A stretch of DNA of 64,000 nt from positions 124,001 to 188,000 of the forward strand of contig NZ_FWZT01000013.1 of NCBI RefSeq assembly GCF_900177345.1. Reading direction: 5' to 3'. A model generated the notes under the pieces. That model ran no database searches and was not told where the DNA came from. It worked only from the letters and a program-made list of their open reading frames with translations. Positions 13,832 to 28,324 of the stretch are shown one piece after another. Source of the stretch: Pseudobacteriovorax antillogorgiicola (GTDB lineage: Bacteria > Bdellovibrionota_B > Oligoflexia > Oligoflexales > Oligoflexaceae). Each line of letters opens with the position of its first letter. Within the stretch, counting starts at the first letter, position 1. The position numbers were made by a program, and so were the translations under genes.

Positions 13832-16800
13832 TTTCTAAGCGGCCTGCTCCGCCGGGAACGAACCCAAACACGATAAGGATCATCACTAATGTTTCTAAGC
13901 GGCCTGCTCGGCCGGGAACGGGGGTACATTGCATTTACGCGGGCAAGGGTATTTCTAAGCGGCCTGCTCGGCCGGGAACGTTAAGCGAACTGAGTAACGC
14001 TTCCACTCACCTTTCTAAGCGGCCTGCTCGGCCGGGAACATGGCAAGATATCCGACAATGTAATACCTGATTTTCTAAGCGGCCTCCTCGGCTGGAACAA
14101 TGCAACAAAGTGTAGGAAATGTTTCATTTTTTTCTAAGCGGCCTGCTCGGCCGGGAACACTGATAGATGAAGTTGTTAATGCGGCTTGTGTTTCTAAGCG
14201 GCCTGCTCGGCCGGGAACGAAGAACCAGCATAATAGGCGACACTTTCAAATTTCTAAGCGGCCTGCTCGGCCGGGAACAAGAGGAAATTCAAAAGCTGCG
14301 AGAACAGCTATTTCTAAGCGGCCTGCTCGGCCGGGAACTCGAGAGTGGTTAAAGCAAGCTGTTCTTTCAATTTCTAAGCGGCCTGCTCGGCCGGGAACTG
14401 TGAATGGCAGAGTCGTAATTGACGGAGTATTTTCTAAGCGGCCTGCTCGGCCGGGAACTGACTTCTAGCTTTCGCTTGAAACGCGCTCTCTTTCTAAGCG
14501 GCCTGCTCGGCCGGGAACAGAAAGTATGATTGCTATTTTAAGCAGATCAAATTAAGCGGCCTGCTCGGCCGGGAACAAGGGCGGCCTTTATATTTATTCA
14601 ACTCTCTTTTTCTAAGCGGCCTGCTCGGCCGGGAACACTTAAGCCTCGTTTTTCCTCGTCTTCGCGATTTTCTAAGCGGCCTGCTCGGCCGGGAACATTA
14701 AGGCTCAAGATGAAACCATAGCTAGGCATTTCTAAGCGGCCTGCTCGGCCGGGAACGAGAAAAAATAAGTTGTATAATCAAGGAGAATTTTCTAAGCGGC
14801 CTGCTCGGCCGGGAACTTGACAACGACGAACAGACAATCCGCGAAGTATTTCTAAGCGGCCTGCTCGGCCGGGAACAATGGATGACGCCAAAACATTAGC
14901 TTGTCAGTTTTCTAAGCGGCCTGCTCGGCCGGGAACATAGTGATCCAATAGTTTTACCACTCCCACTGTTTCTAAGCGGCCTGCTCGGCCGGGAACCAAT
15001 AGACAGCGTGCAAACAGGTGTTCCGCTAGTTTCTAAGCGGCCTGCTCGGCCGGGAACACAGATACACTGAAAGCGAAAAAAAGCAAATTTTTCTAAGCGG
15101 CCTGCTCGGCCGGGAACGTTGAGCTGGCCGAACATGCGGCCCTTCATAATTTCTAAGCGGCCTGCTCGGCCGGGAACGTTGAGCTGGCCGAACATGCGGC
15201 CCTTCATAATTTCTAAGCGGCCTGCTCGGCCAGGAACTATCTTCGAAAGTAGCTATATATAAAGCTTTTTTTCTAAGCGGCCTGCTCGGCCGGGAACTAT
15301 AGAGTGGCCTAAATCCATCGACGACTTTATTTCTAAGCGGCCTGCTCGGCCGGGAACTGGGACCAAAGTTATCGACAGTGATGACGTTATTTCTAAGCGG
15401 CCTGCTCGGCCGGGAACGTTTGAGTGAGTCCGTGTCATCTCCCCTTCAGTTTCTAAGCGGCCTGCTCGGCCGGGAACGGCCACATGGCACTGCTAGCGAC
15501 CTGGCATTTCTAAGCGGCCTGCTCGGCCGGGAACCGTATGGTGCAAGACATACAGCGCGTTCTAGATTTCTAAGCGGCCTGCTCGGCCGGGAACATGGCT
15601 GTAAAAAAGATTTGCGAGCGCTCTGGTTTCTAAGCGGCCTGCTCGGCCGGGAACGTAATCAAGCTTGAGCCAATAGCTAGGAATAATTTCTAAGCGGCCT
15701 GCTCGGCCGGGAACAGACTCTGAAAGGACTTGTGAACCACCGTATATTTCTAAGCGGCCTGCTCGGCCGGGAACGAAGTTTAGAAGCTCGACCATACTGC
15801 TCGTTATTTTTAAGCGGCCTGCTCGGCCGGGAACAGTCATTTCGCTTTTGATCTTAGTCTCTGCAATTTCTAAGCGGCCTGCTCGGCCGGGAACATTCCT
15901 TTCACCGTTGGCGCATCCGTAGTTTTTTCTAAGCGGCCTGCTCGGCCGGGAACAGTAAGTTCTTCATCGGAAGCAATAGCAACGCTTTCTAAGCGGCCTG
16001 CTCGGCCGGGAACTCTCTGCTCGTATGCCGTCTTTAAAAGTGCATTTTCTAAGCGGCCTGCTCGGCCGGGAACTTTTTGTTTGGGCGAGTTTCCTATTCC
16101 TCAGTTTTCTAAGCGGCCTGCTCGGCCGGGAACTGTGAATGGCAGAGTCGTAATTGACGGAGTATTTTCTAAGCGGCCTGCTCGGCCGGGAACTGACTTC
16201 TAGCTTTCGCTTGAAACGCGCTCTCTTTCTAAGCGGCCTGCTCGGCCGGGAACAGAAAGTATGATTGCTATTTTAAGCAGATCAAATTTCTAAGCGGCCT
16301 GCTCGGCCGGGAACAAGGGCGATCTTTATATTTATTCAACTCTCTTTTTCTAAGCGGCCTGCTCGGCCGGGAACACTTAAGCCTCGTTTTTCCTCGTCTT
16401 CGCGATTTTCTAAGCGGCCTGCTCGGCCGGGAACATTAAGGCTCAAGATGAAACCATAGCTAGGCATTTCTAAGCGGCCTGCTCGGCCGGGAACAGTAGA
16501 TCAACGCTCTCCCTTACTTTTCTGGTGTTTCTAAGCGGCCTGCTCGGCCGGGAACGTGCGACGGACCAAGAGTTTGAACACTTTATTTTTCTAAGCGGCC
16601 TGCTCGGCCGGGAACTCGAAAAGCCTTCCCCCAGGACCTAGGCCAGTTTTCTAAGCGGCCTGCTCGGCCGGGAACCCAGTGGCACCGAGTTGTCGTCTGG
16701 AATAAGCATTTCTAAGCGGCCTGCTCGGCCGGGAACATCTACCCATTGAAAGCTATCATCAATCGCCATTTCTAAGCGGCCTGCTCGGCCGGGAACAAAA

Positions 16801-19800
16801 GTTCTAAAGGATCTTTGGCCGTCGTGGTTTTCTAAGCGGCCTGCTCGGCCGGGAACAAGCTCATTGCCTTTTCAGCCAACACTGAGATTTTCTAAGCGGC
16901 CTGCTCGGCCGGGAACTTCTATTAGAGCTAAGACTGAAGCAGCTAGGATTTCTAAGCGGCCTGCTCGGCCGGGAACCAGTTACTCTAGAGAATGCTGCCA
17001 AGGGTCTTTTTCTAAGCGGCCTGCTCGGCCGGGAACTCATCGATCCGTCATCTGGTAAGGTCCTTGTATTTCTAAGCGGCCTGCTCGGCCGGGAACATAA
17101 GGCAGCTTCAATTGGTGTCATCGAGAACTTTCTAAGCGGCCTGCTCGGCCGGGAACGGCATAGGCCACTCCCTGATAGTTGCCTTGTGTTTCTAAGCGGC
17201 CTGCTCGGCCGGGAACGCTCAAAGGCGGTCGTCCAATGTGGCTGCGTGTTTCTAAGCGGCCTGCTCGGCCGGGAACAATATGGTGAATTTGGATCTGTTT
17301 CAAGCTGATTTCTAAGCGGCCTGCTCGGCCGGGAACGAAACCTCAAGCGTAGACGCTGCTTGGCTGGGTTTCTAAGCGGCCTGCTCGGCCGGGAACTGGA
17401 TCGGGTGGATCTTGAGGCAAACAGCCAATTTCTAAGCGGCCTGCTCGGCCGGGAACAATGGGCGTTTGGACATTTTTTGAGACCACCTTTTCTAAGCGGC
17501 CTGCTCGGCCGGGAACAGGATGAACTAGCTTTCCAGATGACCCGTCTTTTTCTAAGCGGCCTGCTCGGCCGGGAACCTACATCAAGCTTCCGGCCCTAAA
17601 GGCAGCTTTTTCTAAGCGGCCTGCTCGGCCGGGAACATGGGTGATAGGGATCACATGCTCCAGTGTGTTTTCTAAGCGGCCTGCTCGGCCGGGAACCGGG
17701 CGCTGTTGAAATCTTTTCTCAGCTTCAATTTCTAAGCGGCCTGCTCGGCCGGGAACTTCGGCTAATTGACTATCAGAACTCTTACTAGTTTCTAAGCGGC
17801 CTGCTCGGCCGGGAACAAAAATGAGTTCTCACGTTTCACCGACGAAAATTTCTAAGCGGCCTGCTCGGCCGGGAACGGTCACGGCGATTTTCAGCAGGCA
17901 GTTGTGGTTTTCTAAGCGGCCTGCTCGGCCGGGAACTTTAAGTGTCTCACGCTTTATACCTTGCCTTTATTTCTAAGCGGCCTGCTCGGCCGGGAACAAG
18001 AAAGTTCGTCAGAAACTCCGTTCAGACGGTTTCTAAGCGGCCTGCTCGGCCGGGAACGTAGGGTCTCTCGCGGAAACATGAAACGCTTATTTCTAAGCGG
18101 CCTGCTCGGCCGGGAACTTGTACTGAATGCTATTTCGTCTCTTGCAAAATTTCTAAGCGGCCTGCTCGGCCGGGAACATCTTTTGAACGTGCCTATTTTC
18201 ATCGAATGTTTTCTAAGCGGCCTGCTCGGCCGGGAACGTGATCCCCTTTTCCATTAGTCCATACCTCATTTTCTAAGCGGCCTGCTCGGCCGGGAACAGC
18301 CATTGTAATAGACTCCGCGACCCACTTTTTTTCTAAGCGGCCTGCTCGGCCGGGAACCAGTAAATAAAGCAATTATCCTCGGCAACCTATTTCTAAGCGG
18401 CCTGCTCGGCCGGGAACCCCAAAGAAGACACTATTAAAGGGTATCTTCTTTTCTAAGCGGCCTGCTCGGCCGGGAACTTAACAAGCTAAAGTTTCAGTTT
18501 TCGGCTCTTTTTCTAAGCGGCCTGCTCGGCCGGGAACCATTGTCGTTTAGGCGATCAAAAGCTAGATATTTTCTAAGCGGCCTGCTCGGCCGGGAACACA
18601 TTCTCGAAAAAGTCTATCGCCCGAAGACATTTCTAAGCGGCCTGCTCGGCCGGGAACTCGATGGCGCGCTGGATCGCATTTTGCCATTATTTCTAAGCGG
18701 CCTGCTCGGCCGGGAACCAGTAAATAAAGCAATTATCCTCGGCAACCTATTTCTAAGCGGCCTGCTCGGCCGGGAACCCCAAAGAAGACACTATTAAAGG
18801 GTATCTTCTTTTCTAAGCGGCCTGCTCGGCCGGGAACTTAACAAGCTAAAGTTTCAGTTTTCGGCTCTTTTTCTAAGCGGCCTGCTCGGCCGGGAACCAT
18901 TGTCGTTTAGGCGATCAAAAGCTAGATATTTTCTAAGCGGCCTGCTCGACCGGGAACACATTCTCGAAAAAGTCTATCGCCCGAAGACATTTCTAAGCGG
19001 CCTGCTCGGCCGGGAACTCGATGGCGCGCTGGATCGCATTTTGCCATTATTTCTAAGCGGCCTGCTCGGCCGGGAACGTTAGGTGTGGTGTGGGTGTGCT
19101 GGGTTGTCTTTTCTAAGCGGCCTGCTCGGCCGGGAACTTAGCTGTCGCTGAAAGGATAACCCCAGAAGATTTCTAAGCGGCCTGCTCGGCCGGGAACATC
19201 CTCATTGAGAACAACGGAAAGATTATCAATTTCTAAGCGGCCTGCTCGGCCGGGAACAGGAGTGGGGCCCATGATAACCGCTTTCAAGATTTCTAAGCGG
19301 CCTGCTCGGCCGGGAACCGGTTTGCTAATTTTGTTCTAAACAACCCAGATTTCTAAGCGGCCTGCTCGGCCGGGAACGGCGAAGGTAATGCCATAGCTAG
19401 CGCCATGGGTTTCTAAGCGGCCTGCTCGGCCGGGAACGCAACTCTTTCCCTTTTGGAAAACGTGGTTATTTTCTAAGCGGCCTGCTCGGCCGGGAACGGT
19501 TTGAGGAGCCTTTACGGCCCTTGGGAATATTTCTAAGCGGCCTGCTCGGCCGGGAACGTCACGGCGATTTTCAGCAGGCGGTTGTTGTATTTCTAAGCGG
19601 CCTGCTCGGCCGGGAACGGCGGAGTAGAGTTCGGCAGTGTATTTGCTCTTTTCTAAGCGGCCTGCTCGGCCGGGAACGGAAAACTTTACCAAGTCATTAA
19701 CCCGCATATTTTCTAAGCGGCCTGCTCGGCCGGGAACGAACATTAGTTTGAACGCTTCGAACCCCATTATTTCTAAGCGGCCTGCTCGGCCGGGAACTAT

Positions 19801-20037
19801 GATGAAAGTATCGATTATGACTCTGATTGTTTCTAAGCGGCCTGCTCGGCCGGGAACATCGCTAACAGGCCTTAACTTACCCGTGCCTTTTTCTAAGCGG
19901 CCTGCTCGGCCGGGAACGAGCTGCTCCCGCCGCCGCAGGAGCTAAGTAATTTCTAAGCGGCCTGCTCGGCCGGGAACGCTCTCACAGCTCCCCCACTCTG
20001 AAGCAACAGTTTCTAAGCGGCCTGCTCGGCCGGGAAC
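13832..20037 (-). CRISPR. Type I-F CRISPR array, 104 repeats and 103 spacers
   Basis: A 28-base repeat recurs about every 60 bases; I counted 104 copies with 103 spacers, mostly 32 bases (range about 29-33). On the plus strand it reads TTTCTAAGCGGCC...GGCCGGGAAC. On the minus strand, the direction of transcription, it begins GTTCCCGGCC and ends CTTAGAAA, with the 5-bp stem CGGCC/GGCCG typical of Cas6f substrates. Orientation matches known I-F repeats, so the leader is at the right, beside cas6f. Degenerate repeats at the left (13832 CTCCGCC variant, 14072 one base short, ~14550 lacking three bases) fit the old trailer end. Variants also occur at 15210, 15807 and 18930. Several spacer blocks are duplicated (see findings). 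The open frames across the array are artefacts. Confidence 0.98.
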
Positions 20038-20182
20038 TCTGGTACAATAGACCTATGTATGCGATTTTCAAAGATCTTTTGCTGGATATCTGCTAAAGAC
20101 CTTCTTTTCTGACGTGAACATATAAATCAATAAAAACAATATGTTATGAAACTAGGAGAAAAAGAAGGTCTAAAATCGATGA
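20038..20182 (-). promoter_or_regulatory. CRISPR leader with nested inverted repeats
   Basis: The 145 AT-rich bases between cas6f and the first repeat. An outer inverted repeat pairs AGACCTTCTTTT (20097-20108) with AAAAGAAGGTCT (20160-20171). Inside it an inner one pairs AACATAT (20117-20123) with ATATGTT (20139-20145). The centre, AAATCAATAAAAAC, is a bendable A-tract such as host factors like IHF bind in other leaders. A possible minus-strand promoter is TTGAAA (20066-20071) and TATTGT (20044-20049), 16 bases apart, just before the first repeat. Leader identity follows from repeat orientation; the protein-binding and promoter assignments are inference. Confidence 0.7.
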
Positions 20183-20752
20183 TTATGGAAAGTCCGGTAC
20201 GGTAGATTGACTACTTAGTCCATAAGCGCTAAACACTCCCTCTTGGGGCCCATCGCGCTTGTTCTTTTCAATGAAAATTGGGAAGACATGGTGATTAGTA
20301 AGGCTCTCATACTCGATTCGCGGAAGCCGTGGCTGACCCATCTGTTCACCCTGACGAATCTCCTTGATAGCGGTATCAAAATCGATACCATGTCTTTTAG
20401 ATGCTCGCCTTGCTAGTTTTTCTATACTTTTTTTATTGTTCTTCCGAACAAAACATACATGCTCAATATTTGACGGGACTATTCTAGCTCGCCTGATATG
20501 AACGTAGTCTCGAAGCCTAATAAGCCACTTCTTTAAGTCCAAACTATGAAGTTCGCTCTCGTCTTTGGCGAATAAACGAAGCTTTGAGCCAACGGTTAGA
20601 CTTTCTGCATCATATTCAGGCCAAGCTAGACCTATACTGCCTGAATTATTCTCAACTAAACAAAGGTGAATTTGCTTAAACACTTTTTTCCATAGAAATG
20701 TTAAATCTACTTCCATTGAAGGCAGTAGGGTCAACTCCATATAGTATTTCAT
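20183..20752 (-). CDS. cas6f: Cas6f (Csy4) CRISPR RNA endonuclease
   Basis: A 189-residue protein, the usual Csy4 size. The catalytic His is at residue 29 (FKQIHLCL), where the well-studied Pseudomonas enzyme also has His29. The basic helix (KLARRASKRHGIDFDTAIKE) that grips the repeat hairpin and the family C-terminus YGLSSQSTVPDFP are present. It cuts the I-F repeat transcript after the hairpin stem and stays on the crRNA 3' end. The gene is last in the interference operon, 14 bases after csy3, next to the leader. Confidence 0.95.
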   Translation of the reverse strand: MKYYMELTLLPSMEVDLTFLWKKVFKQIHLCLVENNSGSIGLAWPEYDAESLTVGSKLRLFAKDESELHSLDLKKWLIRLRDYVHIRRARIVPSNIEHVCFVRKNNKKSIEKLARRASKRHGIDFDTAIKEIRQGEQMGQPRLPRIEYESLTNHHVFPIFIEKNKRDGPQEGVFSAYGLSSQSTVPDFP

Positions 20753-20766
20753 CTCCTTGAGCTCCC

Positions 20767-21783
20767 CTACTTATCACTTTCCCCAAATACGCCCCCTCGG
20801 ATGAGAACAGCCATAACATAGTGCTCATCTTCTTCTCGTTCGAGCTCGCCGCCACGTGCGTATTTATCGAATAGTGTGTAAAAATCGGCTTTCAGCTTTG
20901 GTTGACGAAAGGCTTTACCCATATTCGTTACCGAACCATATGGCTCTATTGCAATCGGACCAAGTCTACTATTGTAGTCAGGGTACCAAGTATCGATACA
21001 TCGGATCGCATTTCCTATCTTCTGAGAATGAAGAGCTGCAATACCACCTAGATTGTAGAGCACCTTGCCTTTTTTTCCTTTACCCTTGTCCATGATAAGT
21101 TCTTCGCTTGGATATACTTCTTGTCCTTCACCAAGCTTTGAGTACGCATCGACTTTGAGTAGTAAGTATCCATCTTCACTTGATAGCGTCTCGGCCACTT
21201 CCCTTGCTAGTTCTTCGATTGATTGATCTTGATCTTCAAAATCTCTAGTACTGTAGTTGTAGCTATCAAACACGAATGTTTTTTCATTGTCCTTAGTTTT
21301 CATTGAAGCAACGACTTCGATTTTCTCACTACCGACCCTGTTTCTCCATAGAAATCTGGCGTTGGCAATGTTAGTAATATATCTACGTGACAGCTCCAAA
21401 AACTGGTACTTTTCAGTGTACTTTGATAAAGTCTTTCGATACGAGTCTAGGAACCCCTCGTGATTGCAAGCTGAGGGCACATGTAACCCACCAAGAAACT
21501 TCAGTGTAAGTGATACTTTCAAAGTATCGTGGTTTAGAGGGAGTGAACATGCGTCTACAGTTTGAAGGTTGGGCTTTTGAACCTCAGCATCTAGCTTTAG
21601 AGGGTCACTTTTGAGAGCCTTTTTTAACCTATTTGATATAGTCCCCCTAACTGATTTTTCTTCTACCTTCAATTCATGAGCTTCTTTTTCTCGTCTTTCC
21701 CAAGCTGTGCTATACATATACGCTGCTGACGGGATAATTTTCTTTTCGAATGCTAAAACCGAAACTAAATCTTTTTTTGACAT
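20767..21783 (-). CDS. csy3: Cas7f (Csy3) crRNA backbone subunit
   Basis: A 338-residue protein of the expected Csy3 length with the family opening VLAFEKKIIPSAAYMYS and central ISNRLK. The segment LGGLHVPSACNHEGFL and the end YVMAVLIRGGVFGESDK also fit. Six copies coat the spacer in the type I-F surveillance complex. GGAAAGAG precedes the ATG. It sits between csy2 (11 bases upstream) and cas6f. Confidence 0.93.
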   Translation of the reverse strand: MSKKDLVSVLAFEKKIIPSAAYMYSTAWERREKEAHELKVEEKSVRGTISNRLKKALKSDPLKLDAEVQKPNLQTVDACSLPLNHDTLKVSLTLKFLGGLHVPSACNHEGFLDSYRKTLSKYTEKYQFLELSRRYITNIANARFLWRNRVGSEKIEVVASMKTKDNEKTFVFDSYNYSTRDFEDQDQSIEELAREVAETLSSEDGYLLLKVDAYSKLGEGQEVYPSEELIMDKGKGKKGKVLYNLGGIAALHSQKIGNAIRCIDTWYPDYNSRLGPIAIEPYGSVTNMGKAFRQPKLKADFYTLFDKYARGGELEREEDEHYVMAVLIRGGVFGESDK

Positions 21784-21794
21784 GATACTCTTTC

Positions 21795-22688
21795 CTAGAC
21801 TGATTGATTTCTACATAGGTACTGGCTATTTTCGCTATCGTAGTCATATGACCAGAGCATATCATCTATAGATGACAAGCTGTATGGGCTAACAAACTCT
21901 CCTAATGTTACGATGCTTTCTACAAACCGATGTGGGGTTGATGAGTCCCTAGTATTAAGTGTCTCTCCAGCATCGTATAGTTGACCAAGTCCTTGATACC
22001 CTGTCACCAAAGGAACAATCCAACCAGGGTGTTTTCGCTTGCTGTTCCATGAAACTCTTTTCTCTGCATCTTCATCTGCATCTATCTCGCTGAAGTTGCT
22101 AACCGCCAATGAATCTAGCAGTTCATCCAAATTATCTTCGGCAGCAACATTCTTGAGTAGGTCGCGTCTTTCAATAGGAATAAACCCAAATGGAATTTTC
22201 CCAATGATAGACATATAACCCTCTTCATTATCTTCAATCCCCACTAGGTAAGGGGATTGAGATTTTTGAATATCTCCACCTGCCAACTTCATCTTACTGT
22301 GAAGGATATGTTGAACGATTTCACCAATTTCAGAAAAAGGTCGAGATCCCGCGTACTGACACTCTATAGCAAGTGATACGTTCAAGTTACATCGAGCTTC
22401 TTCGATAAATGATGATCGCTCTCCCTCCTTACTTAACGGGTAAGCCTTCCCAACTATAGAATTATTATAGTCGCCTACGCCCTTGAACACAGCTAGATCA
22501 AAATCATGAATCACAATCCCCAGATTAGGAAATGATATCTCGATATGTTCTCTCCTGAGCTCTCTTTCCATCTTGTGGACGAAACCGAGCCATGCTGTAA
22601 TAGCTGGAAACCCAATTGTCAAAGAACTGGAGAGGGCATTGGCATCGGATACAGTAAGTCTAGGTATAATTAAGAATAAACGTTTCAC
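21795..22688 (-). CDS. csy2: Cas5f (Csy2) surveillance-complex subunit
   Basis: A 297-residue protein, slightly shorter than typical Csy2. It shows the family N-terminal pattern LIIPRLTVSDANALSSSLTI followed by GFPAITAWLGFVHKMER, and the RPFSEIG and GWIVPLVTGYQGLG regions. It caps the 5' handle of the crRNA together with Csy1. Translation starts at GTG 22688, overlapping the csy1 stop in GTGA, so the two subunits are translationally coupled. I see no frameshift or missing block. Confidence 0.93.
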   Translation of the reverse strand: MKRLFLIIPRLTVSDANALSSSLTIGFPAITAWLGFVHKMERELRREHIEISFPNLGIVIHDFDLAVFKGVGDYNNSIVGKAYPLSKEGERSSFIEEARCNLNVSLAIECQYAGSRPFSEIGEIVQHILHSKMKLAGGDIQKSQSPYLVGIEDNEEGYMSIIGKIPFGFIPIERRDLLKNVAAEDNLDELLDSLAVSNFSEIDADEDAEKRVSWNSKRKHPGWIVPLVTGYQGLGQLYDAGETLNTRDSSTPHRFVESIVTLGEFVSPYSLSSIDDMLWSYDYDSENSQYLCRNQSV

Positions 22689-23902
22689 CGTAGGGCAAAT
22701 CTCCTTCTTGTTCTGATTAACTTAGATATATGTCTTAGGTCTTCGTCTCCTAGGTCACAGGCTCTACTTCCTAATATCTTTCTATATGAGCGGATAAACC
22801 AACGAGAAAATTCTAGAAAAAATGTTTCTCTCAATTCATCATCTCTTTCCTCACTGAATTTGTTATCTAGAAAAACTCTCTGATAATGCGGCACACCTGA
22901 TTTAGAAACTGTTTGCCAAACGTCATCTTCTCTGAGACGATAGATGTCTGTTATTACTTGATCAAAAATATGGAGTATGAAGTTTTCATCTCGCACGCTT
23001 CTAGTTCGAAAACCATTATTATTTTGAATAACTTGAAGGTGGAAACTTTTAAAATCATCTTTAAACTGCCAAGGAGATATGCTTTCACGAAAGAAATCTT
23101 TTTTCGGCAACCTATCTGGCCTAGTTCTAACACTTGGAGGTAGACTAGGAAGTAAATACGCTTTTCCACCATTGTTTTTGTTCTGGACACTGATATTTTG
23201 AGGCTTTGTGCCTCCATACCCAATTACTGTTAGATTGAATAGATCTATGAATCCTTTATCATGGGCCTCATTCCTTTTCTTTGCCTCCCTCGCTTCCTTA
23301 GCCACATCTGAGAACTTAATAGCATCGATTCGCCTCTTCATTTCATATAGAATTGGCGATGGTCTTAGAACTGAGAGAAGATGATAGCTATTATCTACTG
23401 GAAAGTAGACTTGTTTTATTTTTGAGTTAGTGATTGCTATATCAGAAGATATGGACTTCATCTCCAGAAATCCGTTTCTAAGGTTATCAAAGGAAGCTGA
23501 TGGGATTTTCAGTAAGTCTTTTGCTATTTCGCTTCTATCTTCAATATGAGTCAGGAGGCTCCTACCGTCTCCCATTTGCAAGTTCAGAAAGCTATGCACG
23601 TCAAGTGCCGCAGCATTTCCTAGAGCATCAAGTGAAACGTCTAAGTTTCCAGTTCGAACAAAGCCGTCATCACGCTTCGATGATTCAGCTATAATAGCTG
23701 TAGTTCTCCCCGCTGAACTTGCCTTTGCACTTGGATGACTAAACGTGCATGGGTGGCTAGACAATGCGATTTGTTTTGCTCGCGCAGCAGCGCTGGGAAG
23801 CCAGTTATTCAGATCGAACTCTTCCTCAACTTCTTCCTTACTCTTTTTCTTGAGTCTTTCTTCCTTTCTTTTCTCGAAAAAAGATTCAATCGCTTCGTGC
23901 AT
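22685..23902 (-). CDS. csy1: Cas8f (Csy1) large subunit
   Basis: A 405-residue protein, a little shorter than typical Csy1. It opens with the family pattern of a charged helix (IESFFEKRKEERLKKKSKEE), then WLPSAAARAKQIALSSHPCTFSHPSAK as the first conserved block. The region from VIGYGGTKPQNISVQNKNNGG to YLLPSLPP is the second conserved block. Csy1 recognises the PAM and helps open target DNA, then recruits Cas2/3. TGGAG lies 7 bases before the ATG. It is 14 bases downstream of cas2/3. Confidence 0.93.
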   Translation of the reverse strand: MHEAIESFFEKRKEERLKKKSKEEVEEEFDLNNWLPSAAARAKQIALSSHPCTFSHPSAKASSAGRTTAIIAESSKRDDGFVRTGNLDVSLDALGNAAALDVHSFLNLQMGDGRSLLTHIEDRSEIAKDLLKIPSASFDNLRNGFLEMKSISSDIAITNSKIKQVYFPVDNSYHLLSVLRPSPILYEMKRRIDAIKFSDVAKEAREAKKRNEAHDKGFIDLFNLTVIGYGGTKPQNISVQNKNNGGKAYLLPSLPPSVRTRPDRLPKKDFFRESISPWQFKDDFKSFHLQVIQNNNGFRTRSVRDENFILHIFDQVITDIYRLREDDVWQTVSKSGVPHYQRVFLDNKFSEERDDELRETFFLEFSRWFIRSYRKILGSRACDLGDEDLRHISKLIRTRRRFALR

Positions 23903-23916
23903 AATATCTCCAGTAA

Positions 23917-26900
23917 CTATAATTTCTTATCCTCGAACATACCAAGTGCAGGATGATAGCATAATTTCTTGCCCTCTTGATAAGAGGGCAAAAGGATCTT
24001 CCCATACTTTTCAGCTGCTACAAACATTGATGTATTTTCTAGCTCAGCCAAGCTGCATAAAAGTTGGTGAAAATCTCTTGCAACAAAAAGTCGATCATAT
24101 GGGTCATATAAATCAATGAACTTAATGTTAAAACTATCTTCAATCAGATTGTAGCCATCGCTTGATTTAATATGAAATCTAAACTCTAGATCGCTACTGC
24201 ATTTCGATTCATCAGGGAGTAGAAGCAAGCTCAATCCTTGACTTCCTTCTCTAAACGGTGATTCCACCTGTGGCTGAGATGAAAGCCACCAGAACTCGTT
24301 TAGCCACCCCGCTAAAGTTTTTGCCTCTTTTGCATCATAATTGCAAAGATTTTCTTCAAGCTTTATATGTTCCAGCTTTGCGAACTCGTCGGTGTTCTCA
24401 TTGGAGATTCGTAATGATGCATCGATTCCTCTTTCACACCGTTCAATGTCTAGAATGTCAGTCAAACTATGACTACTCAAGTCACTAAATTTCTCTTGAA
24501 AACCTGGCCGATTGAAAACAGCTCTATTGACCCTATTAGATTCCCTCTGCTGTGCTTCTCGAAGGTTGAACTCAAGAATCTTGACATTCGGTTTGCTTAC
24601 ATTCAGCTTTCTATGTCTAAGAATTCGACCAACCAACTGGATGATAGATCGATAGGAAGAAGGCTCAATGATCCCCCAATCAAAATCATGATTTCTTCCA
24701 ACTTCCTCTACCGGAGTCGATACGATAATGAATAAAAAGTCACTACTATCACTTTTGTCTAGAATATCCCTTACAATATCGTGGCTAAATACTCTATCGG
24801 CATTCTTTCTATTAAGAATCTCATCCAATAGGGATTCCTGTTCATGTCTTAGAATTAGAGTCTGTTGGCTATGGTAAATGGTAAGCTTGATCTGTAGATG
24901 ACTTTCCCAATCTGCTTCAAGTAAGTATCTACCCAGCTGGACGCAGGGAGTTACATTTGCCATGCGAATAACACCGAAAGACACTCTTTTTCCTGTTAAG
25001 GGGTCAACTGAATGGTGATCATGATGCAAATTTTCTGCTTCCTTGCGGATTGCTTCAAAGAACCATTCTGACACTGAATTATACCTATCCCGTTCTGAAG
25101 GATTCAAACAGATCAGAGAAGCTTTTCTTCTTACAGGCAATTTAGAAAGATTAGCCAACCGTTTAGAAATAAACTTTTGATGGGAAGATTCGAATTTTGT
25201 AATATAGTCTCGACCAAGATCCATCAAATTTGCTACACTTTGAAATTCATCAATCCATGCAGTACCAACACTTTGATTAAAGCCTCTTGAGCTAGCGAAG
25301 ACTTTCCACCCCTTCGCATAGCAATTAAAAAAACCATTTGCTATTGCTGGCGAAATTGTTGCAGAAGAAAGAATGACTTTTCTTCCTAGCATACCGGCCA
25401 AATGAATAAGTCTGCCAACTGCAAGGAGATCTTCCTTGCCAAAATCGTCAACCTCATCGATGACTATGTCGGACGACATGAGGCGTAATAACGGTAATAT
25501 ATACTTGCCGCCCTTTCTTGTTTCGGTAGCTCCCATGACGTGATCGATAGTACATACTAGTATAGGGGCATAGAGAAAAGCCCTGTCTTTGTCTTTTTTG
25601 ATAACCGTCTTGAGAAGACTTTCGTATTCATAATTCTGGAAATCGATATCATCGTAATCTGATAGATCCTCTAGAGACTCTGATCCCATCTCGCGAGAAC
25701 TTCTTGCACTCTCTCTTTGATCTTCTACTATTCGCCTATGGTGGAGATCCATGAGTGCCTTTGAACCAACAAGTACTGCAAGGCTATCTGAGTCAAGCTG
25801 TAGGTTTTTCCGATACTCATTGCCGGTTTGGAGCGTAAGTGTTCGGAGACCTACGGCCAAAATATACCGAAGACTCTCTTGGTTTGGAGATAACGCACGC
25901 ATGATCTTAGCATTCGCTAAAGTCTTTCCAGTGCCAGTGCTAGCCATATTAACGACAAAGAAACCATATTGCTTGCTAGATTGAATAGAGCTTTCATTCT
26001 TTTCATACCAGGCGCGGATAATTTTAACCGCTTTATCTTGCCAGTTGAACTCTCGGGGGCTAGGCTTACGCAATGCTTTGATGTCTGATGCATACGGCAT
26101 TTCTTGCTCAAAGTAGGGCAACCTATAACTTACTTTGAGCGACTTCTTTGCCACATTGACAAGATGTTCATCTAGCTTCTGCTTTGCATCTCCGTTCTTG
26201 TCCGTATTTGCAATCAATCTAGATTCCACCCATGACTTATCACAATCTTCTGACGAATAAAGATGGTCTCCCATCATTAGGCTGACACGACTAAATATGG
26301 CTAGTAATCGAACGCTGCCGTTTCTGATACTTTCCTCGATTAAGGGCATTTCTCCCAAGGCACGATTCGCCCATTTTCTAATCTGCTGTTGAAGTCTGTG
26401 GCTTTCCTGAAGTAGTCCTTCTGGAAATGTAAAACAGCTTGCCTGCTCATTTTTCCTAAGCTCGTTCATATACCCCCAACCGGCATCAATCATCTGGAGA
26501 AGAGAGTCCATTGAGGGAGCGGAGTTTAAATTTTCGTATCTGCTTCGATCTTTTGAAATATGTGGAAGTTTATGATGACTTAAGATTAGCCAAGCTACAA
26601 GGCAGGCAATAGGCTGCCCCTTTCCTATTACAAGTTTTTCAGATGGGCGCGGTAACTTGCCCCCACTGAAGCCATTTATTGATAACTCCTCCAGCCATTT
26701 CTTGTCAGACTTTTCAAACACAAAGTTGAGGAACAGATTTGTCGATACCCATTCATGTCTAAATGGATCGCTTTTTGAAGCACCACTCCGTTTAAGCTTA
26801 TTTTGAAAACACTCTGAAGCCTTTCCAATATCATGAAACAAAGCACTGAGTGCCGAAAGTGCTTGAATCGCAGGTAGCAGTTGCCACTGATTCTCCACCT

Positions 26901-27195
26901 GAGGGTAATCAATACTTGTTTTATGGACTGGCGAGTACCCTTCACTGCTGAACGCTTCTTTGTTCCCCACTATCCACTGAAGTTCCATTCCTGAATGACC
27001 ACGAAGCTTAAAACATGAAACAGCAGTATTCCTGGTAGCAGATTTTCTCAGTAGCTTTCTAACTGCAAGCAAGCCCTCCATTGTGATCGTAGTGCTCCAA
27101 GTTCGCCTGCCTATTCTATTAGCGAATGAATCCAGGACTCTCTGTGTTCGAGACAGTGCCTTTTTTTCACATAGAGAGTTGAATACGACGATCAC
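23917..27195 (-). CDS. cas3: Cas2-Cas3 fusion nuclease-helicase
   Basis: A 1092-residue type I-F Cas2/3 protein. Residues ~1-95 (MIVVFNSLCEKKALSRTQRV...) are the fused Cas2 domain that joins Cas1 for spacer integration. The HD nuclease motif ALFHDIGKA has His121-Asp122. The SF2 helicase has Walker A STGTGKT (~419-425), DEVDD (~580-584) and the VEEVGRNHDFDWGI and QLVGRILRHRK motifs. It degrades DNA opened by the Csy complex and also takes part in adaptation. Translation starts at GTG 27195 with GAAAGGA upstream. All key motifs are intact, so interference and adaptation should be functional. Confidence 0.96.
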   Translation of the reverse strand: MIVVFNSLCEKKALSRTQRVLDSFANRIGRRTWSTTITMEGLLAVRKLLRKSATRNTAVSCFKLRGHSGMELQWIVGNKEAFSSEGYSPVHKTSIDYPQVENQWQLLPAIQALSALSALFHDIGKASECFQNKLKRSGASKSDPFRHEWVSTNLFLNFVFEKSDKKWLEELSINGFSGGKLPRPSEKLVIGKGQPIACLVAWLILSHHKLPHISKDRSRYENLNSAPSMDSLLQMIDAGWGYMNELRKNEQASCFTFPEGLLQESHRLQQQIRKWANRALGEMPLIEESIRNGSVRLLAIFSRVSLMMGDHLYSSEDCDKSWVESRLIANTDKNGDAKQKLDEHLVNVAKKSLKVSYRLPYFEQEMPYASDIKALRKPSPREFNWQDKAVKIIRAWYEKNESSIQSSKQYGFFVVNMASTGTGKTLANAKIMRALSPNQESLRYILAVGLRTLTLQTGNEYRKNLQLDSDSLAVLVGSKALMDLHHRRIVEDQRESARSSREMGSESLEDLSDYDDIDFQNYEYESLLKTVIKKDKDRAFLYAPILVCTIDHVMGATETRKGGKYILPLLRLMSSDIVIDEVDDFGKEDLLAVGRLIHLAGMLGRKVILSSATISPAIANGFFNCYAKGWKVFASSRGFNQSVGTAWIDEFQSVANLMDLGRDYITKFESSHQKFISKRLANLSKLPVRRKASLICLNPSERDRYNSVSEWFFEAIRKEAENLHHDHHSVDPLTGKRVSFGVIRMANVTPCVQLGRYLLEADWESHLQIKLTIYHSQQTLILRHEQESLLDEILNRKNADRVFSHDIVRDILDKSDSSDFLFIIVSTPVEEVGRNHDFDWGIIEPSSYRSIIQLVGRILRHRKLNVSKPNVKILEFNLREAQQRESNRVNRAVFNRPGFQEKFSDLSSHSLTDILDIERCERGIDASLRISNENTDEFAKLEHIKLEENLCNYDAKEAKTLAGWLNEFWWLSSQPQVESPFREGSQGLSLLLLPDESKCSSDLEFRFHIKSSDGYNLIEDSFNIKFIDLYDPYDRLFVARDFHQLLCSLAELENTSMFVAAEKYGKILLPSYQEGKKLCYHPALGMFEDKKL

Positions 27196-27382: not shown

Positions 27383-27389
27383 TTAAATT
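27362..27389 (+). repeat. Orphan CRISPR-repeat-like hairpin at the cas1 3' end
   Basis: CGGCCGAATAGGCCG (27367-27381) followed by CTTAAA matches the array repeat core (CGGCC-GAGCA-GGCCG-CTTAGA). About 18 of 22 core positions agree, including the whole stem and the G...A loop ends. It reads in repeat orientation on the plus strand, opposite to the array, and overlaps the cas1 stop codon. It is a single copy about 7.3 kb from the array. Confidence 0.75.
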
Positions 27390-28324
27390 TCCATCCGAGA
27401 CACCTTCTTAATACAGTTAAACATGTAGTCCAAGGCCTTGTGATCTGTAAGTTTCATGATGCATGTTGAACGGAACTCCTGTTCAGAATCTCCTTGCTTG
27501 GCTGATATAAAAGCTTGGGGAAGGATAATCGCATCCTTTACAAGATCTGCAATATCAAATACCAGCGCACCTTTCCTGGTCTTCCCATGCATCACTGCAA
27601 ATCCATAGGGGATTCCCAGAACCCAAAGCGATGTTGCTGCTAGGCCATAGGCCAGGTAGTTGCCATGGGAAAGAAACGTATTCTGAGGATCTGTGGACTT
27701 ATGATCACGCTTAAAGTCTTCGAGCTCAGTCTTTTCTCGGGAATATCGATACAGAAAGCTAGTCAGTTCGCCCTCTACTCCAAGTAGCTGAGAGATACTA
27801 TTGGCCCGGTTAAACTTTTTCCCGTATCTATCTAAGGCAGACTCCATGTCATAGTCTTCGGCATCGAACCCTTTATCCAGTAGATCTTTATCCTTACTCC
27901 AGACCAACTCAATGAACTCAAGACGAGATCGTTGAAAGTACTTTGCAGCTTTTAAGCGTTTACTTTCTTCAAACCAGAATGACATCCATCCCTGGAGGTA
28001 TTCGGTTGGACGATATTCACCATGGGGAACAAGCCACTCTACTTCGGTACCCATGAGTAGAGGGGTGCCGCCTCCTCCTGTAAAACCAATGACAACACCA
28101 GCTGAAGCCAGCATTCGCACAGCCGCTTGGGTTATCGATGTACCATTCCCTAATAGGATTACTGTCGTATTAGCAATTGGAATATTCCAGTAGTTATTTG
28201 TTCTATTTTTGTGGCTTAAATAGAGGACCCTACCGTCCTTCTGAAGTACCTTACAGTGCTCGATATAGAATATATTAGCTCTTTTTGAGTGAAGAATTGC
28301 TTTTAGATCAGTCAGGGATTCCAA
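27383..28324 (-). CDS. cas1: Cas1 integrase, type I-F
   Basis: A 313-residue protein of the I-F Cas1 group (NTTVILLGNGTSITQAAVRM near the N-terminus). The metal ligands expected for Cas1 are present: Glu in LLGVEGELT (E184/E186), His246 in AVMHGKTRKG and Asp in VFDIADLVKDA (D257/D260). With the Cas2 part of Cas2/3 it inserts new spacers at the leader end. Translation probably starts at TTG 28324 after GAGGT. It is the first gene of the cas cluster, separated by 187 bases from cas2/3, so the rest may be transcribed separately. Confidence 0.95.
   Translation of the reverse strand: MESLTDLKAILHSKRANIFYIEHCKVLQKDGRVLYLSHKNRTNNYWNIPIANTTVILLGNGTSITQAAVRMLASAGVVIGFTGGGGTPLLMGTEVEWLVPHGEYRPTEYLQGWMSFWFEESKRLKAAKYFQRSRLEFIELVWSKDKDLLDKGFDAEDYDMESALDRYGKKFNRANSISQLLGVEGELTSFLYRYSREKTELEDFKRDHKSTDPQNTFLSHGNYLAYGLAATSLWVLGIPYGFAVMHGKTRKGALVFDIADLVKDAIILPQAFISAKQGDSEQEFRSTCIMKLTDHKALDYMFNCIKKVSRMEI

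Follow-up and report, generated by a model that had tools for sequence, protein, structure and literature searches.

The type I-F locus and its array

The window, a stretch of 64,000 nucleotides from Pseudobacteriovorax antillogorgiicola, carries an apparently complete type I-F (I-F1) CRISPR-Cas locus, comprised of an array, a presumed leader and a set of cas genes (Table 1). All six open reading frames between 20183 and 28324 match I-F models in PADLOC, from which the system type is directly evident. The array repeat is 28 nt long and on the minus strand forms a hairpin whose 5-bp stem closes a 5-nt loop, with a fold z-score of only -1.5, followed by the 8-nt 3' segment CUUAGAAA, a tail that we take to be the canonical I-F handle. 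The hairpin is of the Cas6f type and the repeat is a type I-F repeat. Repeats with at most eight mismatches to the consensus were counted. The leader was placed at the high-coordinate end of the array because cas6f adjoins it there and degenerate repeats (at 13832, 14072 and 14549) are found at the opposite end; from this position we infer the leader side, and hence the age order of the spacers.

Table 1. Features of the CRISPR-Cas locus and spacers discussed in the text
Feature	Position in window	Strand	Observation
Type I-F array	13832..20037	-	104 repeats, 103 spacers; minus-strand transcription
Spacers S46-S49, consecutive	16556..16768	-	match contig C35 of the same genome within 1.7 kb (L044:8317-10030), all on one strand
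S46			target RecT gene (C35); 1 mismatch; PAM CC
S47			target RecT gene (C35); 2 mismatches; PAM GA
S48			target ssb gene (C35); 4 mismatches; PAM CC
S49			target exonuclease VIII-like gene (C35); 0 mismatches; PAM CC
S54	17037..17068	-	32/32 identical to own rpoB (L045, C1:79079); 5' flank TT, not CC; GG directly 3'
S68	17877..17908	-	GGTCACGGCGATTTTCAGCAGGCAGTTGTGGT; 36th from presumed leader, taken as older
S76	18358..18389	-	exact copy, S82, at 18718-18749
S96	19558..19589	-	GTCACGGCGATTTTCAGCAGGCGGTTGTTGTA; 8th from presumed leader, taken as newer
Presumed leader	20038..20182	-	between array and cas6f; placed by position only
cas6f	20183..20752	-	PADLOC, E 1.2e-54
cas7f	20767..21783	-	PADLOC, E 1.4e-135
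cas5f	21795..22688	-	PADLOC, E 3.9e-86
cas8f	22685..23902	-	PADLOC; GGTKPQNIS segment with K247/N250 (P. aeruginosa numbering) conserved
cas2-3 fusion	23917..27195	-	PADLOC, E 1.2e-265
cas1	27383..28324	-	best model Cas1fv, E 1.1e-156; Cas1f, E 1.9e-133

Parts of the array have been copied within it. These true duplications, whose spacer edges have stayed in place, are arranged in tandem or as collinear blocks and comprise the block S10-S15/S39-S44, in which S12/S41 was shortened by a damaged repeat, the exact block S76-S81/S82-S87, and the tandem duplicate S22/S23. Within the first of these blocks, S13 (14577-14608) and S42 (16315-16346) differ at two neighbouring bases, which represents a real mutation of the array after copying.

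Spacer targets, the PAM and a self-targeted prophage

The consecutive spacers S46 to S49 all match one contig of the same genome, C35 (Table 1), while a control with shuffled spacers gave 0.2 matches per full set on seven pieces of the contigs C35, C37 and C47. Primed acquisition from an element closely related to the C35 prophage would produce such a pattern; as the four spacers hit a 1.7-kb segment of a single prophage with zero to four mismatches, the host does record diverging relatives of one element family. Contig C35 encodes a terminase, portal, head protease, major head protein, baseplate and tail-sheath, and was called a phage or phage-plasmid contig because of these structural genes together with weak ParA-like and ParB_N matches. 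It also bears a Tn3-type transposase. The related phage contig C37 has a portal 72% identical to that of C35, both contigs ending within the tail-sheath gene, and a portal fragment containing one stop is present on C47.

A CC PAM (in crRNA sense, before the protospacer; GG on the other strand) was found at four of the six distinct spacers that have targets with at most four mismatches (S46, S48, S49 and S76), which agrees with the CC PAM proposed for this system in the preliminary description. The other two are S47, with GA, and S54, with TT but with GG directly 3'. In this tally S82 was counted once with S76, and a match of S48 at seven mismatches (L014) was left out and treated as chance. 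Spacer S54, which matches the host's rpoB, looks as if it had been taken up from the opposite strand and inserted in flipped orientation, and would then be harmless. The duplicated spacer S76/S82 matches ssb genes, with four mismatches in the related genome G027 (L011) and eight in C35 (L044:9887), and CC is present at both.

The mismatch counts and PAMs of S46 and S49 predict that these two spacers would cut C35. This contig encodes an AcrIF11 homologue (C35:29613-30089, L044:15614-16090; NF052490.1, 148.5 bits against a cut-off of 50), directly followed downstream by an Aca2-like gene (Aca2_YdiL, PF08965; C35:30125-30493, L044:16126-16494; 66.7 bits against a cut-off of 23.8). According to passages of PMC12421852, mutations of AcrIF11 (8DWQ) at H20, Y46, D146 and E147 abolish activity; these residues align to H5, Y31, D137 and E138 of the C35 homologue (positions counted on the alignment), and the Cas8f of the window keeps N250, the asparagine modified by AcrIF11. 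The C35 homologue may be active against this Csy complex. The AcrIF11-Aca2 pair would offer a ready reason for the coexistence of the C35 prophage with an apparently complete I-F system. An arrangement of this kind, in which a prophage is targeted by S46 and S49 at CC PAMs and encodes an AcrIF11 homologue with an Aca2-like gene behind it, resembles the self-targeted AcrIF11-aca prophages described in parts of PMC12421852 and PMC13131331. In contrast to the systems of those reports, the C35 homologue is a candidate recognised by its sequence, in a genome group where it found no match among the 57 other genomes of the phylum set. C35 may serve as a natural test case, being a prophage that an apparently complete I-F system should destroy and that itself bears AcrIF11-Aca2.

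A small protein family is shared by C35, contig C10 of the same genome and three G027 contigs (L126, L127, L129, L130 and L132); it gave no match in PHROGs, and in two cases has a putative DNA methylase-like neighbour.

Two related spacers of presumably different age

Direct comparison of S68 and S96 shows a 31-nt overlap with a register shift of one base and two mismatches, at the coordinates and with the shift and mismatches of the preliminary description. In an all-against-all comparison of the 103 spacers with shifts of up to 12, this pair scored 25, whereas 20 composition shuffles yielded no score above 6 and the best unrelated real pairs likewise reached at most 6. The only other non-identical related pairs were S12/S41 and S13/S42, both inside the copied block. 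S68 would be the older of the two, because the array grows at its high-coordinate leader end.

Both edges have shifted by one base, the flanking repeats being intact, and the neighbours of S68 and S96 are different spacers, as had also been remarked before. These observations bear on whether S68 was duplicated inside the array and one copy then mutated. The array does duplicate, in blocks and in tandem, and the two-base difference of S13/S42 is a case of mutation after copying. However, the pair is isolated and its neighbours differ, and copying would need the loss of a base at one edge, the gain of a base at the other and two internal substitutions, with the length of 32 nt and the repeats left unchanged. 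Copying is therefore highly improbable. Independent capture is far simpler, because the pair is isolated between differing neighbours, its edges have moved and the repeats are intact, and S68 and S96 very probably represent independent captures of one homologous site. The earlier proposal of independent capture over array duplication is thus well supported by the moved edges, the contrast with the true duplications and a shift compatible with the PAM, while its other part, concerning the target gene and element, could not be confirmed, no protospacer having been found in the searches described below. The recording of diverging relatives of one element family by S46-S49 likewise favours independent capture.

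Translation bears out the peptide HGDFQQAVV that had been read from both spacers in one plus-strand frame, with both differences at synonymous third codon positions. The differences fall at overlap positions 22 and 28 (counted from 0) and, together with the position 31 implied by the PAM, are in one codon phase. A random pair of substitutions is silent at both positions, in one or another stop-free frame, in 17.7% of cases, so that the silent pattern lends the plus frame weak support; as the coding frame it is favoured, though not proven. A gene on the opposite strand, reading ...NNRLLKIAVT in S96 and ...HNCLLKIAVT in S68, is rather unlikely, though it draws on a 20-base exact match to the core in Pseudomonas straminea that lies inside a 663-codon ORF on that strand (DDGLLKIAVRNLL), putatively histidine-kinase-like, and on ORF length in the 29 database matches to HGDFQQAV, 17 of which have a longer antisense frame of the LL[KE] type. 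On that strand, however, every difference would fall at a first codon position and alter the amino acid (H/N and C/R), where the plus frame makes all of them silent, and scans of viral sequences for the LLKIAVT-type peptide gave a single match, without an in-frame match, the third frame giving none.

No protospacer of S68 or S96 was present in the viral, phage, plasmid, own-genome and related-genome collections searched, so that the virus and plasmid search suggested in the preliminary description did not confirm a GHGDFQQAVV-encoding gene of a phage or plasmid on this strand. A pattern scan for HGDFQQAVVV in viral contigs gave no match, and HGDFQQAV in genome contigs gave 29 matches, none of them with HGDFQQAVVVG. 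In a set of 58 genomes from this phylum, the window's own among them, searches with patterns and with 18-aa and 15-aa peptides returned only the array itself and weak matches judged unrelated or due to chance. Comparison of the whole array with phage and plasmid records gave no S68/S96 protospacer, and neither did scanning the spacers against 39 viral loci that carry a related portal, against the own contigs C37 and C47, and against the prophage of the relative G027.

Several candidates were rejected. In viral contigs, the single match to GDFQQAVV is antisense to a real phage gene, the five matches to GHGDFQQ lie in no plausible gene, and GDFQ[QKE]A[VIM]3G recovered two copies of another small protein. 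Plasmid matches to the array span several repeat units at 60-80% identity, 10 of 11 rows having no annotated gene, and were read as other I-F arrays. Matches of S68/S96 at six to seven mismatches in L027, L028, L034, L038 and L041 were discarded as circular, because these loci had been picked by the motif itself. The sequence NGDFRQAVVV on contig C78 of G027 sits in a chromosomal sensor-like protein. A small protein of C35 with GDFQRKLAV was also set aside; its relatives (34-39% identity) have the next glycine at a distance that disagrees with the spacer peptide, and no relative was found for it in PHROGs or among phage and viral sequences.

The register shift and a proposed history

With a CC PAM, the plus strand implied for the older capture (element A) is GTTGTGGT followed by GG, and that for the newer capture (element B) is GTTGTTGTA followed by GG, the respective edges being GT/GG and GTA/GG. 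The one-base shift can then be explained without slippage, because loss of the first PAM through a change at a third codon position moves the register. Imprecise acquisition, on which Jackson et al. have reportedly written in 2019, would give another explanation, in which the captures are independent but the shift arises because the acquisition machinery slips around a GG common to both sites, with no moved PAM. Slippage is a real but minority route in type I-F systems, as far as the parts of PMC4117759 and PMC5059440 consulted describe it: in Pectobacterium the GG was shifted by one in 24 of 28 non-consensus spacers (PMC4117759), canonical GG was present in 90-93% of protospacers (PMC5059440), and slippage was the usual cause of the roughly 1 in 10 I-F spacers that are non-consensus (PMC4117759, PMC5059440). 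S68 and S96 resemble these slipped spacers in their one-base register shift around a GG PAM. Unlike the latter, which in the passages cited derive from one plasmid sequence in the laboratory (PMC4117759, PMC5059440), they also differ internally; moreover, a canonical PAM reading is available for both without slippage, and makes the two sites TGG and AGG, which are preferred according to the same source (PMC5059440). We consider slippage unlikely.

Under the reading with a moved PAM, S68 and S96 would record homologous copies of one site, carried by two mobile elements related to each other and captured at separate times. Element A would have been cut at GT/GG and element B at GTA/GG, each with a canonical CC PAM, a third-position change in element B having removed the first PAM and moved the capture register by one base. 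Element B would thereby have escaped S68 and been recorded again as S96, possibly via priming by S68. Elements A and B are putative; escape of element B together with priming by S68 is put forward tentatively, with slightly less than even confidence. If the PAM of S96 is canonical, the S68 crRNA is predicted to meet on element B the PAM CT, with mismatches at seed position 3 and at position 9, and the S96 crRNA is predicted to be mismatched on element A at positions 1, 4 and 10. The element, if found, would show whether loss of a PAM set the new register and whether S68 primed S96.

The two spacers differ in age, overlap at one site and are not copies of each other, as in escape and recapture, and represent a further case of a known phenomenon, here in a type I-F array. 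Two overlapping spacer pairs directed against LME-1 were described in one array of Legionella pneumophila Toronto-2005; there, according to passages of the report (PMC5071653), the older spacer of a pair is weakened by a PAM or seed mismatch and the newer one matches the element perfectly, for which its authors propose escape followed by natural priming. Like those pairs, S68 and S96 are spacers of different age in one array that overlap at one site; unlike them, since the Legionella system is described as type I-C with a known element (PMC5071653), they belong to a type I-F system, and their element was not found in the collections searched. S68 and S96 can be taken as a chronological record of how one site of an invader has changed. 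It is conceivable, if improbable as a whole, that all these observations belong to one arms race with several layers against a single phage-plasmid family, in which S46-S49 would target recombination genes, C35 would survive through AcrIF11-Aca2, and a relative would have escaped S68 by a silent, PAM-moving change before being recaptured as S96.

The frequency of such pairs under unbiased capture was estimated from C35, where counting both strands gives about 98 PAM sites per kb. By this arithmetic, the chance that a second unbiased capture from a 56-kb element falls at the same or the adjacent register is near 4 in 10,000, and about 90 distinct spacers would be expected to contain about 1.5 such pairs if all derived from one 56-kb family, or about 0.13 if 30% did. 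Priming by S68 is therefore not required for the pair, since unbiased capture could yield this number of pairs; priming near the older site would raise their frequency.
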